Shown here: in pieces, positions 4,636-36,575 of the stretch
How positions within the stretch are numbered: position 1 is the first letter of the stretch
Layout: each line of letters opens with the position of its first letter
NCBI RefSeq assembly: GCF_031844705.1
Contig: NZ_CP134609.1
Span: 4,650,001-4,714,000 of the forward strand
DNA: 64,000 nucleotides
From: Streptomyces sp. ITFR-16
GTDB taxonomy: Bacteria > Actinomycetota > Actinomycetes > Streptomycetales > Streptomycetaceae
Direction of reading: 5' to 3'
Program-made: the position numbers and the translations under genes
The notes under the pieces: model-generated
Database searches by the model: none
What the model saw: only the letters and a program-made list of their open reading frames with translations
Told to the model about the DNA's origin: nothing

Positions 4636-5382
4636 CTAGTAGACCAGCGCGTCGTCCATCTCGCTCTGCCAGTACGTGACATAGCCGCTGTCGCTCCAGT
4701 ACGTACCGGCGGGCAGCGTCAGTTCGGCCGGGGCGGTGTTGGTGGAGCTGTTGTCCCTGGCGGAGAAGTGCACGGCGAGGTGGGTGCCCTTGTACGTCTT
4801 GCCCCCGGGCTCACCGGTGAGCCCGATCGCGGCGTACGCGGACTCGCCCGGGTCCAGCGTCACCACGGCCTGGGGCCTGCTGTCGTCGAGGACCTGGAAG
4901 ACGGCCTGGGCCTCGTCGAAGCGGAGCTTGGGCGCGTGGTAGGCGTAGCAGGTCCGGGAGCCGGTGTTGGTCAGGGTGAGCAGCAGGTGGTTGACCGGGC
5001 GGCTGACCTTGGTGACGGTGAGCCTGGTGTTCTCGCCGACGCAGGTGACGGGGGTCTTCGGGGCGGCCGGGGCGGGCTTGGGCCTGGCCTTGCTCTTGGC
5101 CGGAGGCGCGGTGGTGGCTGCCGGGGCGTCGGCGCCGCTGTCGGTGTCGGTTTCGGCGTCCGTGCCGTCCTTCTGCGGGGCGGCGGACGGGGACGCGGAG
5201 TGGTGGCCGGCGGTGTTCGCGGCCGGTGCGGGCGCCCCCGCCTTGCCGTTGTCGCTGCCGCTGCCGCTGCCGCTGCCGCTGCCGCTGCCGCTGCCGTCGT
5301 CACCGCTGCACGCGGTGAGGGAGAGGGCGGCGACGAGGGCGGTGGCGGCAAGGACGGTGGTGCGGATGCGGTTGGTACGCAT
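4636..5382 (-). CDS. DUF4232 lipoprotein
   Basis: This 248-residue exported lipoprotein has a hydrophobic signal (TTVLAATALVAALSLTACSG) whose lipobox LTAC places the lipidated Cys near residue 24. A perfect Gly-Ser repeat and a proline/alanine-rich linker follow, up to about residue 110. The C-terminal DUF4232 beta domain starts at TPVTCVGENTRLTV and includes HLLLTLTNTGSRTCYAY and VTLDPGESAYAAIG. The family occurs on the outer face of the actinobacterial membrane and has no known function. The Gly-Ser linker is encoded by a tandem hexanucleotide, so its length may vary between strains. Confidence 0.85.
   Translation of the reverse strand: MRTNRIRTTVLAATALVAALSLTACSGDDGSGSGSGSGSGSGSDNGKAGAPAPAANTAGHHSASPSAAPQKDGTDAETDTDSGADAPAATTAPPAKSKARPKPAPAAPKTPVTCVGENTRLTVTKVSRPVNHLLLTLTNTGSRTCYAYHAPKLRFDEAQAVFQVLDDSRPQAVVTLDPGESAYAAIGLTGEPGGKTYKGTHLAVHFSARDNSSTNTAPAELTLPAGTYWSDSGYVTYWQSEMDDALVY
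5250..5297. repeat. Tandem GCCGCT hexanucleotide repeat
   Basis: About seven perfect copies of a 6-bp unit encode the (Gly-Ser)n linker of the DUF4232 lipoprotein on the minus strand. Because the unit is a multiple of three, slippage would change linker length but not the reading frame. Confidence 0.85.
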
Positions 5383-30517: not shown

Positions 30518-30554
30518 CAGGGCCGGACGAGGCGGTACGCCTGGTGCCCCGAGT
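30518..30554 (+). repeat. Imperfect 37-bp direct repeat, left copy
   Basis: Bases 30518-30554 match 36652-36688 at 31 of 37 positions, with the core GTACGCCTGGTG identical. The right copy is the 3' end of the gene at 36651. Read on the minus strand, both encode GHQAY followed by LV. The two copies enclose the NLR block. Confidence 0.55.
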
Positions 30555-30595
30555 ACCTTCTGCGCATGGTGGATCAGCGAGGCCGGGGCAACGAG

Positions 30596-31234
30596 ATGAG
30601 CGGTGGCCATGTCAATGGGGCCGTGATTCAGGCAGGAGCCGTGCACGGCGACGTGTCCGTGACGGCACCTGTGCATGAAACGGTGAATACAGTGATCCGG
30701 GAAGTGCGGACCATGCGCTTTGGTCCCGCGCTGTACCGGGTTCTGGCGTCGCTTGCCGGGTGCTCGGCCGTGTACGGAGCCGCTCACGGCGACAAGCCGC
30801 TCTTGGGGGCCGCCGCCGCATGCGAGGCACTCGGTATTCCCTCCGGCTGGACGGCGCCTGCCGCGGCCTGGATCGCCGGCCGAACCGATTTCCTGGGCGG
30901 TCTGGCCACGTTGCTCGTCCTGGTCGGCCTCCTGACTGTGCCGAAGCCGGAGGCCCTCGGTGGCGACCTGGCTGAAACGCTGCAATGGCGTGGCCCGTCG
31001 TCAACGGTGCTGGGGCTTGCTGTCCTGGCTCAGTGTGGATTGATATGGCAGCCGTTGCTGAACATCGCTCCCTTCGTCGCATTCGGGATCTGGGTGGCCG
31101 GTCGGCAAGAGGAGTACGGCAGCCGGTCAGGCCGTGTCGCAGTGGCGGTACTTGGTGTGCTGCTCGCCCTGGCGTTCGCGCCCCTCTACGCGTTTCTGTG
31201 GCTGTTCGGCCGTGATGCGAACAGGGCGGCCTGA
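30596..31234 (+). CDS. Membrane protein with N-terminal amyloid-like (BASS/RHIM-like) motif
   Basis: This 212-residue protein opens with a glycine-rich motif, HVNGAVIQAGAVHGDVSV, spanning residues 4-22. It matches the N-terminal motif of the NLR-like gene at 32212 and the C-terminal motif at 31253. Four or five hydrophobic helices follow (FLGGLATLLVLVGLLTVP, TVLGLAVLAQCGLIWQPL and VAVAVLGVLLALAFAPLYAF among them). The layout suggests a membrane partner recruited by motif-templated assembly. The ATG at 30596 is behind a weak GGGG site; an ATG at 30566 would add ten residues. Function is inferred from motif and context only. Confidence 0.72.
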   Translation: MSGGHVNGAVIQAGAVHGDVSVTAPVHETVNTVIREVRTMRFGPALYRVLASLAGCSAVYGAAHGDKPLLGAAAACEALGIPSGWTAPAAAWIAGRTDFLGGLATLLVLVGLLTVPKPEALGGDLAETLQWRGPSSTVLGLAVLAQCGLIWQPLLNIAPFVAFGIWVAGRQEEYGSRSGRVAVAVLGVLLALAFAPLYAFLWLFGRDANRAA

Positions 31235-31252
31235 GGCCGGCGGCCTCCGCGG

Positions 31253-31675
31253 TCAGCGGTCGTCGTCCCTGGACATGTTGAACGTGAGGCTTGAGAAGTC
31301 CCGGCCCTGGAGTACGGGGCCGTTCTGGGTTCCTCCGCTGATGCTGTTGTGCACCTCATGGCTCGAACCGCTCTGCGCTTCCTGCCACCACTCGGCGAGC
31401 GACGCACGGAACTCCCCGTCCAGGGCGGCACGCACGCCGAGAGCGGTGGCCAGAGCCTGGGCGCGCACCGGGTCGCCCGGATTGTTCTCCAGTTCCGCGA
31501 CCTCCAGCTCGCCCGAGCTGATGCCGGGTGACCCCTCGGTCTGGGCGTCCTCTGCCGATCCGCGCCGGAACGGACGCCTCACCAGCGTGTTGAGACCCTG
31601 CCACGCCTGGCGGCCGGCATCGCCGCCGACACTTCCGGCCAAGGCCGTGAGGGCCGCTGCGGTGATCGGGTCCAT
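31253..31675 (-). CDS. Bell-like helical effector with C-terminal amyloid-like motif
   Basis: This 140-residue protein has an N-terminal helical segment (MDPITAAALTALAGSVGGDA, then WQGLNTLVRRPFRR) and a helical middle (DPVRAQALATALGVRAALDG). It ends in NSISGGTQNGPVLQGRDF then SSLTF. This is the layout of small Bell-domain proteins reported to pair with NLRs in Streptomyces: a membrane-acting helical domain plus a C-terminal amyloid signalling motif. The ATG at 31675 follows GGGAG with 6-base spacing; a longer frame has no ribosome site. It is tail-to-tail with the membrane protein gene, 18 bases apart. The cell-death role is inferred from family architecture. Confidence 0.75.
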   Translation of the reverse strand: MDPITAAALTALAGSVGGDAGRQAWQGLNTLVRRPFRRGSAEDAQTEGSPGISSGELEVAELENNPGDPVRAQALATALGVRAALDGEFRASLAEWWQEAQSGSSHEVHNSISGGTQNGPVLQGRDFSSLTFNMSRDDDR

Positions 31676-31708
31676 GCCGGGCTCCCTGGGTAGGTGTCTG
31701 ACCGTCAC

Positions 31709-32211
31709 AGCCTAGGTCCACGGCACGGAGCGACGCAGGGGTTCCGGTGCATCCAGGGGGCTTCCCTCCACCACCGGACCCTCTGCCCGGGAATACGGCG
31801 ACCCATCTCGGGTGCGAGGCAATGCTGTTGACGCTCGGTCGACGAGACGCGCAACACCCTGGACGGACGTGCGGACGTGGTCGTTCAGGCCGGACGCACC
31901 GGAGAGCTGCATCAGCATCCGCGCGGCGCCGATGTTCCGGCGCGGCCGGTTCCGTTCCGCTGCCGTCGGCACATGCGCGGATTTCGAGAACAGACATGAC
32001 GAGCGGGAGCGCATCGCGAGCGGTCCGAGGCGCACGGGTCCCGCGCGGGGCCGCTCGTCGTCGCGCCGACCGGGCGGCCGAGGGCCGCGGCGCAGAGGCC
32101 TGTGAACGGGTCTGGTACGAGGCCGTCCGGACGCGTCGGCGGAACGCCTTCCTCCCCGCCGTGGGTCCAGTACCGTGGGCTCTGGTCGGCGATCTGAACA
32201 GGCGGTGGTCC
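31709..32211. other. 500-base stretch without a confident gene
   Basis: Between the Bell-like gene and the NLR-like gene there is no gene with a convincing start and domain. A minus-strand frame (31712-32035) contains [20 protein letters not shown], which looks protein-like, but codon use is irregular and there is no ribosome site. The promoters of the two divergent genes probably lie here. Confidence 0.3.
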
Positions 32212-34385
32212 ATGAGCACGCGAGGTGAGCCGGAACGCCCCGTGGCGCCTGGGGTCATGAACAGTCTCTCCGGCCATGTCGATGGGCAACTGGCCCAAGT
32301 GGGGTCGTCCACGGGGGCATTTCCTTCAATTACCAAGCCGCGCCGACCGCGGAACACGCGGGACGGCGCGTCGACCAGGTACCGAGACCACCCCGTGGGT
32401 TCGTCAACCGTCACGACGCCCTGGCCGCACTCGACGACTTATTCGGCAAGGGCGACGTCCCCGAATGCCCGATCGGCGTGTTCAGCGGGATGCCCGGCAT
32501 CGGCAAGACAGCGGCGGCCAGCCAATGGGCCCACAGCAACCAGTCGCTCTTCCCCGACGGCCAGCTTTTCGTCGACTTCAGCGCGCTGCGCTCCGGGACC
32601 GGCGGGGACGTCTCCGAGGCGCTCGCCACCTGCCTGAGGTCTCTCGGGGTCGCGGATCAGTTCCTCCCCGCGGGGCTCGCCGACCGGACGGCCCTCTACC
32701 GGGACCTGTCCGCCGAGCGCCGGATGCTGGTGGTGCTTGACGACGTGACGCGCCCGGCGCAGGTCACCACCTTGCTGCCGCAGGGGCCGGGCTGTGCCGT
32801 GCTGGCGACCAGCACGTGGCAGCTCGGTGAGCTCGTCCTCGACGGCGCGTCTCTGCTCCACCTCGACGTCCTCGGCGTCGACAGCGGCCTGGAACTTCTC
32901 TCGGCCCTCTGCGGCCCGCAGCGCATCGCGCGCGAACCCGCCGCCTCCGCGAGGCTGGTGAACATGTGCGGTGGACTGCCGATCGCCCTTCGCATCTGTG
33001 GCGCGCGGTTGCTGACACACCGCCGCCTGACAGTCAGCGCGCTCGTCGATGAGCTGTCCGATGAGCAGCGCCGCCTCAGCCGATTCACCGTGTCCTCAGC
33101 CCACGAGGAGCGCACCGTGTCCGCAGCCCTTGAAATCGCCTACCGTGACCTGCCCGAATCCGCCGCGCGCATGTACCGCGTCCTCGGCCATGTTCCAGGC
33201 CTCAGCTTCGACACCGCCCTCGCTGCGCTGGCCGCCGGGCTCGACACGGCCGAGGCGGCCCAGGAAGCGCTGGACGTGCTGGAGACCGCCAGTCTGCTGT
33301 CCATCACTGACGAGCGCAGATACGCGTTGCACGGCCTGGTACGACTCCATGCCCGGGATGTGTCCGGGACCGTCGACCCACCGGGCACCGAACAGGAAAT
33401 CGTCCGCAGGGTCACCGGCCACTACCTCGCGCTGACAGCCGTGGCCGACCGCGCCATCCGCGCCGACCGGCTTCGGATCGCGGGGCTGGAGGAGATCTTC
33501 GGGGCCGTCGGTCGCTCGGCCGACAACGACCCGTTCGCCACGGCCGACGATCCCGGTGACGATGCGATCAGCTGGCTGGAAGCCGAACGTGCCAACATCC
33601 TGGCCGTGCTCCGTACCGCGTCCCGGTTCGGCTTCGAGCGCCCCGTGTGGCAACTGGCGGAGGCGTTCACGGCCCTCTTCTTCCATCACCGGCACCTCGC
33701 GGACTGGCGGGAGTCGCTCGAACTGGGTGCCGACGCCGCACGACGCGACGGCAACGCCGCAGCCGAGTCCAGACTGCGCAGCCTGCTGTCACGGCCTCTG
33801 CTCGACCTGGGACAGGACGAGCCGGCGAAGACACAACTTGACATCGCCGAGCGGCTGGCCGTGGAGTCGGGGCATCCGGTCCTCCACGCATCGGTGCAGG
33901 AGTTCCTGGGTCGCTACTGGGATCTGCACGATCCTGCCCGGGCGGTCGCCGCGTACCGTACCTCGCTGGCTCTGAACGCCGAGGCCGGGGAGGAACGAGG
34001 AGAGGCCCTGGCCCGGTACTTCCTCGGCCGAGCCCAGAGCGTGGTCGGTGACCACGCCGCCGCTCTGGCGGATCTGGCCCTGGCCCGGGACGTGTTTCTC
34101 ACCCTCCACGACCAGCGGATGGCGGCTCGGGTCCTGGCCGATGCCGGCCGGGTCAAGGCCCGGCTCGGTGACGTCGTGGGTGCGGTTTCCGACCTCACCC
34201 AGGCCGCCGACGCCCTGCGGCAGGCAGGAGCCTCCCACTACGAGGCGCAGGCTCTGGAGGATCTGGCGGACCTCTTGGACGACCCGGACGAGGCGCGGGA
34301 CCACCTGCGTCGGGCCCTCACGGTCTACGAGGAGGGCGGGAGCCCACGGGCGGCGGACGTCCTCGCCCGGCTGAACTCCGGCTGA
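32212..34385 (+). CDS. NLR-like NB-ARC/TPR ATPase with N-terminal amyloid-like motif, frameshifted near the start
   Basis: If one G is restored in the run at 32301-32304 this gene encodes about 724 residues. The N-terminal motif NSLSGHVDGQLAQVG continues, after the shift, as VVHGGISFN. The NB-ARC core follows, with Walker A GMPGIGKT, Walker B RRMLVVLDDV and the GxP motif GGLPIALRICGARL. Then come a winged-helix region (YALHGLVRLHARD) and TPR-like helices to the end (ALARYFLGRAQSVVGDHAAA and similar). As sequenced, the core frame opens only at a GTG at 32478, directly before Walker A, which cannot be a natural start. The likely role is a sensor that nucleates motif assembly in its partners. 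A sequencing error, programmed shift or real mutation are all possible. Confidence 0.8.
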
Positions 34386-36079
34386 GCCGTCGGAGGACTC
34401 GCCGGGCGGAACAGCAGCCGTTGCCGGCGTGCCCCGTGACGCAGGACTGGCGTCGCGCCTTCGAACGGTGTGCCGAGACGCAGGAAGGCGTATACCGCGG
34501 CCGCAGCCGTACCGGGGTCCGGGCACGGCCCGTGCTGGGCACCGACGTTCACGAGCCGTCCGTCCCGTACTCCGACCAGGCATCCGTCCTCCCCCGGCAC
34601 TGCGGCGATGCGGGCCCCGGGGAAATCGGTCAGCAAGCCCTCGATGCGCTGTCTCCCCGCCTCCGGAGAGAAGAGTCCCGAAACGGAACAGACGACGGTG
34701 GCGCTCTCCGTGAGCCGGGTGTCCGGCTCGTCGATGTCGCAGGCGAGGTGCCAGAACGAGGCCTTTCCCTCTCCCGTCTCCCCGGCCAGAGCGGCGGGGA
34801 AGCGGCGGACATCCACATGGATCTCCGCCCCGCCGTTCCGTACGACAGAGGTGTTCACCATGAAGGACCGGGCACGTGGGCTGTCCGCGGGAGGAAGAGG
34901 GAACGCGCGGGTGCTGCGGACCGGGTGTTCGGGCCGGGACAGGCCAAGGAGGCTGTAGACCACCTCGCGCAGACGTCGCAGGGAATCCCCGGGCTCCGCG
35001 AAGGCCCCGGCGGAGACCGCGGCATATCGGTCCTCATGGTGCCCAGCCATCGCGGCCTCCACCTGTGTGCGCAGCGGCAGGCTCGCGTCCAGCCGCCCCG
35101 CCGCCGCGCGGAGCACGTCCCCCGCCGTACCCGGCACAGCCTCGGAGCCGAACGCGCCGAGCAGCACGGGCCGCCCGATCGCTGCTCCGTAGAGCGTCAC
35201 CGAGCCGTGGTCCCCGATCACCAGATCGGACGCCACCAGGGTCTGCTGCCAGCCGTCCGTGGGGTCGACGACGATCAGTCCTGCCTCCACTGCGGTTCGC
35301 TGCATGACCCGGATCTGCCAGGTGCCGTGGCCGGACCAGACGTTCGGGTGAAGGACGAGCGCCACCCGGAACTCGTCGGCCGGGAGCTGGGCCAAGAGCT
35401 GCGCGGGAAGCCCCGGACACGATCCGGCCAGCGATTCCTCACCCCAGGTCGAGCTCACCAGAACCAGTTGTTGTCCGGGGTGTACCCCGAGGGCGGACCG
35501 GTATCGGTCCCGCCACAGGGCGCTGGCCCGAAGCCGGTCGAAGCAGGGATCGCCCACGAGAACCGTTCTCCCGGCCGTCGCCGGGTGAGCTGCCGCCAGC
35601 TGCGTCGACTGAACGGGGTGCGACACGGCCAGCCAGGCCCGGCGCGTCGCCAGCAGATCCTCGGGAACGAGCCCGGAGAGCCGGGTGCCGGGGCCGGCCG
35701 ACTCGGGGACCTGCTTCTGGAACCCGACTCCATGCGGCAGTACCAGCACCGGATAGTCGCCGACGGGGACCGTGACGTTCTCGGAGGCGGAGATCAACAG
35801 GTCCGGTGTGACATCGGGGAGTTGGGACCATGGGAGGGTGCGGCAGCCCGTTGAGCGGAGCAGGTCGAGCACACCGTCGTTGAAGGCCGATGCCGGATCG
35901 TACGCGAACACCACGGTGATCCGAGGATCGTCGTGCACGACCTCGGGCACCACGTCCAGTACGCGCACGAGCGAGGTCACTGTCCTCGCCGCCACGATCA
36001 GGGTGCGGTCGCCCCCGAATGTTCGCCAGCGTGCGGCGTCGGGTCCTACGGGGACGACAATGCTCTCATTGGGCTCCAT
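34325..36079 (-). CDS. GT-B-like protein, CDP-glycerol glycerophosphotransferase-related fold
   Basis: This 584-residue cytoplasmic protein has a strong start (GGAGGT 5 bases before ATG). Its first 340 residues resemble GT-B enzymes of the TagB/TagF kind: VLPHGVGFQKQVPE near 115, TVLVGDPCFDRL near 173, VALVLHPNVWSGHG near 243 and LVIGDHGSVTLYGAAIGRPV near 291. The C-terminal 200 residues (HVDVRRFPAALAGETGEGKA) are not recognised. Such proteins are sometimes mislabelled translation initiation factor 2 in streptomycetes. The stop overlaps the NLR 3' end by 61 bases on the opposite strand. The leader contains about 50 copies of a 7-bp repeat. Partnership with the NLR module is inferred from position. 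Confidence 0.7.
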   Translation of the reverse strand: MEPNESIVVPVGPDAARWRTFGGDRTLIVAARTVTSLVRVLDVVPEVVHDDPRITVVFAYDPASAFNDGVLDLLRSTGCRTLPWSQLPDVTPDLLISASENVTVPVGDYPVLVLPHGVGFQKQVPESAGPGTRLSGLVPEDLLATRRAWLAVSHPVQSTQLAAAHPATAGRTVLVGDPCFDRLRASALWRDRYRSALGVHPGQQLVLVSSTWGEESLAGSCPGLPAQLLAQLPADEFRVALVLHPNVWSGHGTWQIRVMQRTAVEAGLIVVDPTDGWQQTLVASDLVIGDHGSVTLYGAAIGRPVLLGAFGSEAVPGTAGDVLRAAAGRLDASLPLRTQVEAAMAGHHEDRYAAVSAGAFAEPGDSLRRLREVVYSLLGLSRPEHPVRSTRAFPLPPADSPRARSFMVNTSVVRNGGAEIHVDVRRFPAALAGETGEGKASFWHLACDIDEPDTRLTESATVVCSVSGLFSPEAGRQRIEGLLTDFPGARIAAVPGEDGCLVGVRDGRLVNVGAQHGPCPDPGTAAAAVYAFLRLGTPFEGATPVLRHGARRQRLLFRPASPPTAQPEFSRARTSAARGLPPSS

Positions 36080-36125
36080 CGCGTACCTCCGCCTGACGGC
36101 AGGATCGCACACAACGGTTTCAGAT

Positions 36126-36495
36126 GGCTCCCGGCTCCCGGCTCCCGGCTCCCGGCTCCCGGCTCCCGGCTCCCGGCTCCCGGCTCCCGGCTCCCGGCTC
36201 CCGGCTCCCGGCTCCCGGCTCCCGGCTCCCGGCTCCCGGCTCCCGGCTCCCGGCTCCCGGCTCCCGGCTCCCGGCTCCCGGCTCCCGGCTCCCGGCTCCC
36301 GGCCCCGGCTCCCGGCTCCCGGCTCCCGGCCCCGGCTCCCGGCTCCGGCTCCGGCTCCCGGCTCCCGGCTCCCGGCTCCCGGCTCCCGGCTCCCGGCTCC
36401 CGGCTCCCGGCTCCCGGCTCCCGGCTCCCGGCTCCCGGCTCCCGGCTCCCGGCTCCCGGCTCCCGGCTCCCGGCTCCCGGCTCCCGGCTCCCGGC
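36126..36495. repeat. Heptanucleotide tandem repeat, about 50 copies of GGCTCCC
   Basis: This 370-base array of a 7-bp unit is nearly perfect, with a few shortened or GGCCCC variants around 36301-36360. Seven is not a multiple of three, so all six frames stay open and encode heptapeptide repeats (REPGAGS on the minus strand, RLPAPGS on the plus). It ends about 46 bases before the ATG of the GT-B-like gene, inside its probable leader. On that mRNA each unit contains GGGAG, a Shine-Dalgarno-like core. Slippage could change expression of the gene. Confidence 0.97.
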
Positions 36496-36545
36496 CAGCT
36501 TCTCTATCGTATCTATGGGTGCTGGGCAACCGCTCCACCCGCTTT

Positions 36546-36575
36546 CTCTCCCGGCAAGGCTACTTGTCGGGAGAG
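36546..36575 (-). terminator. Hairpin after the conserved hypothetical gene at 36651
   Basis: A 12-bp stem with one mismatch (CTCTCCCGGCAA against TTGTCGGGAGAG) and a 6-nt loop lies 75 bases beyond the stop of the minus-strand gene at 36651. It may also separate that gene from the repeat array. Confidence 0.55.

Follow-up and report, generated by a model that had tools for sequence, protein, structure and literature searches.

A one-base gap in the N-terminal motif of a Streptomyces NLR probably reflects a recent natural inactivation within a bacterial amyloid-signalling cassette that was already in decay

Introduction

In Streptomyces sp. ITFR-16, the gene of an NLR receptor (NLR1) carries its N-terminal amyloid-like motif in one reading frame and its NB-ARC ATPase core in another, which raises the question of whether the two frames reflect a genetic switch, a receptor that has lost its function or an error in the record. 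The initial annotation of the 64,000-nucleotide stretch analysed here (the window; contig NZ_CP134609.1, positions 4,650,001 to 4,714,000) had offered three such readings side by side: an on/off switch of the receptor, a loss of function that tames a toxic module, and a sequencing error.

The kind of system to which the locus is compared, BASS, for which ten profiles have been published, was reportedly first described by Dyrka et al. in 2020. In the excerpts considered of four sources (PMC7889193, PMC8086366, PMC12261475, PMC9815663), BASS are pairs of NLR and BELL-domain genes of filamentous bacteria. Among the literature matches listed, we recognised no paper about this locus.

Results

A single base is missing within the NLR1 motif

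The cassette comprises the following features, in window coordinates.

30596..31234 (+): membrane protein, 212 aa, putative effector; open frame with the N-terminal amyloid-like motif MSGGHVNGAVIQAGAVHGDVSV (30596-30661)
31253..31675 (-): BELL-like protein, 140 aa, putative membrane-targeting effector; helical domain and C-terminal motif NSISGGTQNGPVLQGRDFSSLTFN (about 31277-31348)
31838..32074 (+): fossil N-terminus from another receptor in tandem (NLR2), including an amyloid-like motif of its own, located by tblastn with NLR2 of Streptomyces sp. RKAG290
32212..32637 (+): NLR1 start frame, 31 N-terminal residues that include the opening part of the motif (32260-32304), followed by out-of-frame residues; from frame reading and alignment with relatives
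32301..32304 (+): site of the missing base, GGGG, one base short compared with other loci in the DNA alignment
32304..32477 (+): VVHGGISFN (32304-32330), which completes the motif, and linker RPPRGFVNR; read in the core frame, with no usable start
32478..34385 (+): NLR1 core, NB-ARC ATPase and TPR-like repeats; open from GTG 32478, supported by Pfam NB-ARC (E 1.4e-10) and by relatives

The frame that opens at ATG 32212 reads MSTRGEPERPVAPGVMNSLSGHVDGQLAQVG, followed by unrelated residues until TGA at 32635 (141 codons), while the core frame, open from a stop near 32226, reads GVVHGGISFNYQ...RPPRGFVNRHDAL...GMPGIGKTA. The claim that motif and NB-ARC core lie in different frames, parted at the GGGG of 32301-32304, was thus borne out with every coordinate correct, as was the claim that the core frame offers no usable start before 32478: its first ATG, GTG or TTG is GTG 32478, and the only rarer start codons upstream of it are ATT 32319, CTG 32421 and ATC 32472. 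In a DNA alignment with the ten closest loci the window is one base short between GGG and GTC, which agrees with the proposal that one extra base at the GGGG restores a smooth protein. Along the whole gene (2.2 kb), the motif gap is the single indel relative to locus L045 whose length is not a multiple of three. One base is therefore absent from an otherwise whole gene, and the two frames did not part by chance. The repeat domain of the receptor is recognised by TPR_12 with an E-value of 2.2e-5, below the curated cut-off. An unusually stable RNA hairpin is predicted at 32305-32400 (z -3.1); it is absent from the other ten loci and we take it to be a chance structure.

Relatives carry the same receptor in one frame

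A scan of GTDB species genomes yielded 18 loci, of which the ten closest (L042-L049, L054 and L055) share 69-79% identity with the window in the best segment. Nine of these ten have motif, linker and NB-ARC in one open frame, as exemplified by S. inusitatus (NSIPGHVEGQLVQAGVVHGGITFNYHEVREPHLGRRPDQVPRPPRGFVNR). The nine loci L043-L049, L054 and L055, from Streptomyces sp. PR69, S. eurocidicus, S. inusitatus, S. huasconensis and others, carry the same receptor, motif and linker as the window, and a BELL-like gene is present in 8/9 of their genomes; they differ from the window in that motif and ATPase share an open frame. The position of the G run is interrupted by another base in other loci (GGCGTC, GGTGTC, GGAGTC). 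A degenerate DNA pattern for the motif, run across the window's own genome, returned one match, which we took to be unrelated.

Two of the relatives depart from the common form in other ways. In L048 (CC208A) motif and ATPase share a frame, but this stretch contains no ATG. In L054 (S. huasconensis) motif and NB-ARC are in frame, and the core changes to a different frame past a GASG-type, repeat-like insertion near residue 345 (about 5050-5350); apparent breakage of NLR1 hence also occurs outside the motif. An insertion close to this position is found in L049 as well, where it keeps the frame.

The assembly of the nearest relative tends to lose bases; the coding frames of the window genome show no such tendency

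The exception among the ten is the nearest relative, Streptomyces sp. RKAG290 (L042, genome G295), where the frame of the NLR1 motif breaks 12 nt further downstream, at a different G run. Its locus shares with the window the membrane protein (74%), the BELL-like protein (80-81%), NLR1 (79%) and a similar downstream repeat array; it differs in that NLR2 is present, that the cassette lies at another chromosomal place and that the NLR1 break is displaced by those 12 nt.

As a control on both assemblies, we aligned 660 kb of the window genome with 680 kb of RKAG290, which, with a minimum alignment length of 700 columns, gave 464,474 columns (overlaps included; 449,794 bases of the window genome covered). 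Gaps of 1-2 bases were counted where they were isolated by 90 columns and had a clear codon phase on both sides; the count left out opposite-strand alignments and those shorter than 700 columns, together with any gap that exceeded 2 bases, had another gap within 90 columns or was of unclear codon phase, and the 90-column rule also excludes the NLR1 motif itself, whose two gaps are 12 nt apart. The count gave 20 isolated breaks of a coding frame, all single-base deletions, and in 20/20 RKAG290 is broken and the window genome in frame. Two of these rows are one RKAG290 site matched by two copies in the window genome, which leaves 19 distinct sites. Under the same rules, the number of isolated coding-frame breaks in the window genome is 0. 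In an earlier and smaller pass with looser rules, some multi-base or clustered gaps did seem to shift the phase of the window genome (G000), among them a 4-base gap near 4607430 and a group of gaps near 4584125.

The lengths of G/C runs were compared with coding and non-coding sequence pooled, taking only runs that were equal or one base shorter. Five-base runs are one base shorter in 20/343 cases in RKAG290 and 2/322 in the window genome, and four-base runs in 8/1758 and 3/1761, respectively; for six-base runs there is no difference (3/38 in RKAG290, 3/37 in the window genome). The window genome is assembled into 3 contigs (8.12 Mb) with completeness 100 and contamination 0.09. The break in RKAG290 is probably an assembly error, because that assembly is rich in one-base deletions and tends to lose bases at G runs, and the missing base of the window is probably real, because the coding frames of the window genome show no such deletion tendency. 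Our guess is that the RKAG290 assembly stems from long-read sequencing of a type that readily makes these errors.

A convergent, real loss in RKAG290 was also considered; it is weakened by the fact that all 19 distinct breaks, together with the 20/343 shortened five-base runs, belong to that assembly. Frame breaks in the RKAG290 record need to be read with caution.

A fossil of a second receptor lies directly upstream

In RKAG290, NLR2 follows the BELL-like gene as an open frame (G295:C1:3865612-3867705), and 3713 bp of this region are replaced by 64 bp in the window. What the window retains aligns by tblastn with RKAG290 NLR2 at 55% over 83 aligned positions (E 1e-19), with one internal stop. 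The start codon is lost, there are indels besides the stop, and the similarity ends at GPLVVAPTG just before Walker A, whereas the intact NLR2 protein continues past this point into Walker A. Mismatches of the fossil number 10, 20 and 19 at the first, second and third codon positions, with no third-position bias. NLR2 was found in five relatives including RKAG290; in S. eurocidicus, S. inusitatus, CC208A and R302 (L044, L045, L048, L055) it stands upstream of NLR1, and the proteins are 70-76% identical and stop-free over the 582-634 residues compared. Judged from these alignments, loss has struck the receptor side of the cassette a second time and independently; the NLR2 remnant is more worn, and its loss thus looks the older of the two.

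The NLR1 core shows no sign of relaxed constraint

Compared with RKAG290, mismatches in the NLR1 core number 88, 64 and 218 by codon position, and comparison with L045 revealed no frame-breaking lesion besides the motif gap. Maximum-likelihood (ML) branch lengths, calculated for 9/11 sequences (L054 and L055 left out) on a tree with some weakly supported inner nodes, gave no indication of relaxed constraint on the window branch of the core: the ratio of positions 1+2 to position 3 is 0.283, within the 0.19-0.43 of the other tips. The lack of relaxed constraint by ML and of any further frame-breaking lesion indicates either that the break is recent or that the core is still used. Relaxed selection on NLR1 had been suggested by a cruder parsimony count (45:39 against 42:69 for positions 1+2 : 3; Fisher p 0.03), and was set aside when the ML analysis disagreed.

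Two putative effectors remain open

The BELL-like gene has homologues of 60-81% identity in 9/10 related genomes, which by their coordinates lie near NLR1 or the NLR2-NLR1 pair (about 2 kb downstream in A1277). No Pfam, PADLOC or NCBIfam model matches the product at the curated cut-off or with a significant E-value. The name BELL-like follows in part the description in the excerpt considered of PMC7889193, and not a profile. Its structure model consists of helices and a low-confidence, disordered tail that carries the motif (mean pLDDT 65.6); a fold comparison with this low-confidence model gave 9 rows of Z at least 2 among 77 chains (best Z 4.1), with no HeLo-type entry among those rows. The membrane protein, which shows hydrophobic 19-residue peaks after its N-terminal motif, was found only in the window genome (1/61 genomes) and RKAG290 (1/10 related genomes), with no match in the other 60/61 genomes and 9/10 related genomes. 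Both effector genes appear to have been kept over the divergence from RKAG290, because mismatches fall mainly at third codon positions (34, 31 and 82 by codon position for the membrane protein; 19, 11 and 47 for the BELL-like protein).

That the NLR1 motif of the window resembles the motif of the membrane protein, as the initial annotation had noted, is supported by shuffling: with the two halves of the split motif scored apart, the observed score was reached by 8/2000 and 43/2000 shuffles. The same halves match the BELL-like protein more weakly (206/2000 and 83/2000). For each of four NLR1 orthologues, 0/2000 shuffles reached the score against the membrane-protein motif, and against the BELL-like motif the result in those four genomes is uneven (19, 6, 128 and 0 of 2000). 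The NLR2 motif of RKAG290 scored 77/2000 with the window BELL-like protein and 376/2000 with the membrane protein. By sequence comparison, the membrane-protein motif is the best candidate partner of the NLR1 motif.

A second cassette is present elsewhere in the genome (G000:C1:4280222-4284631), with a receptor at G000:C1:4280222 whose motif NEISGEATLNGPAIQAREVHGGIHFH is in frame. About 2 kb from this receptor, at G000:C1:4284221-4284631, lies a paralogue of the BELL-like protein (82% identical), and the second cassette may still use the effectors of the window.

Surroundings of the cassette

Downstream of NLR1, at 36126-36495, a 7-bp unit (GGCTCCC) is repeated about 53 times. This array stands upstream of a gene on the minus strand whose match to a glycerophosphotransferase is weak (PF04464; E 5e-4, below cut-off). 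A stretch 97-100% similar to the array lies downstream of the RKAG290 NLR (G295 about 3873551-3874087). With a unit of 7 bp, changes in the length of such an array could shift frames. The RKAG290 counterpart of the whole cassette (30553-36566) lies elsewhere, about 240 kb off on the chromosome of that strain, while both flanks are syntenic, and the cassette thus seems to move or to be exchanged.

Discussion

The organisation of the locus resembles that of BASS. NLR1 has the NB-ARC ATPase and repeat domain of such receptors, its gene adjoins a small gene (31253-31675, minus strand) for a helical, BELL-like putative effector, and short amyloid-like motifs are found at the N-terminus of the receptor (in the relatives) and the C-terminus of the effector. 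It differs from BASS in three ways: the receptor motif, which shares a frame with the ATPase in 9/10 closest loci, is split in the window by the loss of one base; the second receptor is a fossil; and an extra membrane protein bears an N-terminal motif that matches NLR1 better than the BELL-like protein does. The locus looks like a decayed instance of an already known kind of system rather than a genetic switch.

We consider a recent natural loss of function, in a cassette already decaying, to be the probable explanation of the split motif, because nine of the ten closest loci are in frame, a single indel breaks the frame, the assembly control is clean and a receptor fossil lies directly upstream. 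Points against it are that RKAG290 has its own break only 12 nt away, for which assembly error is no more than a partial explanation, that six-base runs do not set the two genomes apart, that the core shows no relaxed constraint by ML, and that the NLR1 and BELL-like motifs match unevenly. Of the three readings offered at the outset, loss of function is the one strengthened, by the in-frame relatives, by an assembly clean in the stretch tested and by the fossil receptor; the further suggestion that the loss tames a toxic module would be a supposition, and plain decay explains the loss equally well.

It is unlikely that the living strain has an unbroken NLR1 and that the base was dropped in assembly. 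G and C runs are where assemblies lose bases, the break of the nearest relative sits at such a run in an assembly that shortens its five-base runs at the frequency given above, six-base runs come out one shorter as often in the window genome as in RKAG290, and the core looks constrained, all of which would fit an error. Against this stand the lack of any isolated coding-frame break in the window genome over the 464 kb in which the same method found 19 in RKAG290, an assembly of few contigs, complete and nearly free of contamination, and the loss of the adjoining NLR2, which cannot be an error of such kind; the sequencing-error reading was in this way made unlikely. Distinctly less probable is a recurrent inactivation of the receptor motif, whereby an intact motif would carry a cost in the presence of the extra membrane effector, and selection would favour losing the motif while keeping the core. 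NLR1 is broken in the motif, at different bases, in 2/2 strains that have the motif-bearing membrane protein and in 0/9 loci that do not; this idea presupposes that the RKAG290 break is real, and hangs on that doubtful record.

Slipped-strand changes at the G run that toggle the receptor are highly improbable, despite two sister strains being broken within 12 nt in G runs of the same motif. Contingency genes are marked by a long homopolymer or short tandem repeat conserved among relatives; the tract here is only four Gs, of a kind that occurs 3811 times (as four-base G/C runs) in the covered part of the window genome, the position holds no long homopolymer in other loci, being broken up there by other bases, and nine of the ten closest loci are unshifted. 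The sole other motif break sits at a different site, in an error-rich assembly, and the on/off switch is not supported. We attach just as little weight to the truncated core having been kept as a motif-less NB-ARC protein, a decoy or brake made from the internal start. GTG 32478 does stand directly before the P-loop of an open and apparently constrained frame, but by eye no clear ribosome-binding site precedes it, a protein started there would lack the conserved stretch ahead of the P-loop, and other loci do not have such a form, the doubtful break of RKAG290 apart. Programmed -1 frameshifting, which would yield a low level of full-length receptor, is barely credible. The shift needed is indeed -1, and the predicted hairpin begins 3 nt after the run and is stable (0/200 shuffles; z -2.99 on repeat). 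Such sites combine a slippery heptamer with downstream structure, both of them conserved; here no X XXY YYZ heptamer is in frame at the run, the spacer is short, and the hairpin is unmatched in the other ten loci (z -1.01 to +1.24). We dropped this explanation, as the hairpin is private to the window among 11 loci and nine other loci need no shift.

Natural loss of function, our preferred explanation, can be set within the model published for such cassettes, on which the seeding mechanism is based (PMC7889193, PMC8086366, PMC12261475 and PMC9815663, in the excerpts considered). In the intact relatives, by analogy, a trigger sensed by the NB-ARC/TPR receptor would lead it to oligomerise and expose its N-terminal motif; templated by that motif, the motif of the neighbouring effector (the BELL-like protein, and here also the membrane protein) would take on the same fold, and the seeded effector would attack the cell's own membrane. 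In this strain, NLR2 was lost by deletion, with the fossil N-terminus left behind, and the seeding motif of NLR1 is short of one base midway along its length; the NLR1 loss would be the later one, because NLR1 is without other damage. The product from ATG 32212 would have half a motif and no ATPase, and that from GTG 32478 would have the P-loop, without the motif and without the conserved stretch before the P-loop. With half a motif lacking the ATPase and a core lacking the motif, the local sensors would, by the published model, be unable to seed the effectors, the genes for which stay open.

New in this study are the NLR2 fossil, the motif-bearing membrane protein as the best candidate partner of NLR1, and the finding that the sole other motif-broken copy stems from an unreliable assembly. 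The last of these carries a warning: frame breaks in single GC-rich assemblies are not to be read as switches. A natural state in which the receptor of an amyloid NLR cassette is broken and its effectors are open, with in-frame relatives at hand, would be useful to ask whether such effectors are silent without their receptor, and whether the second cassette of this strain can drive them.
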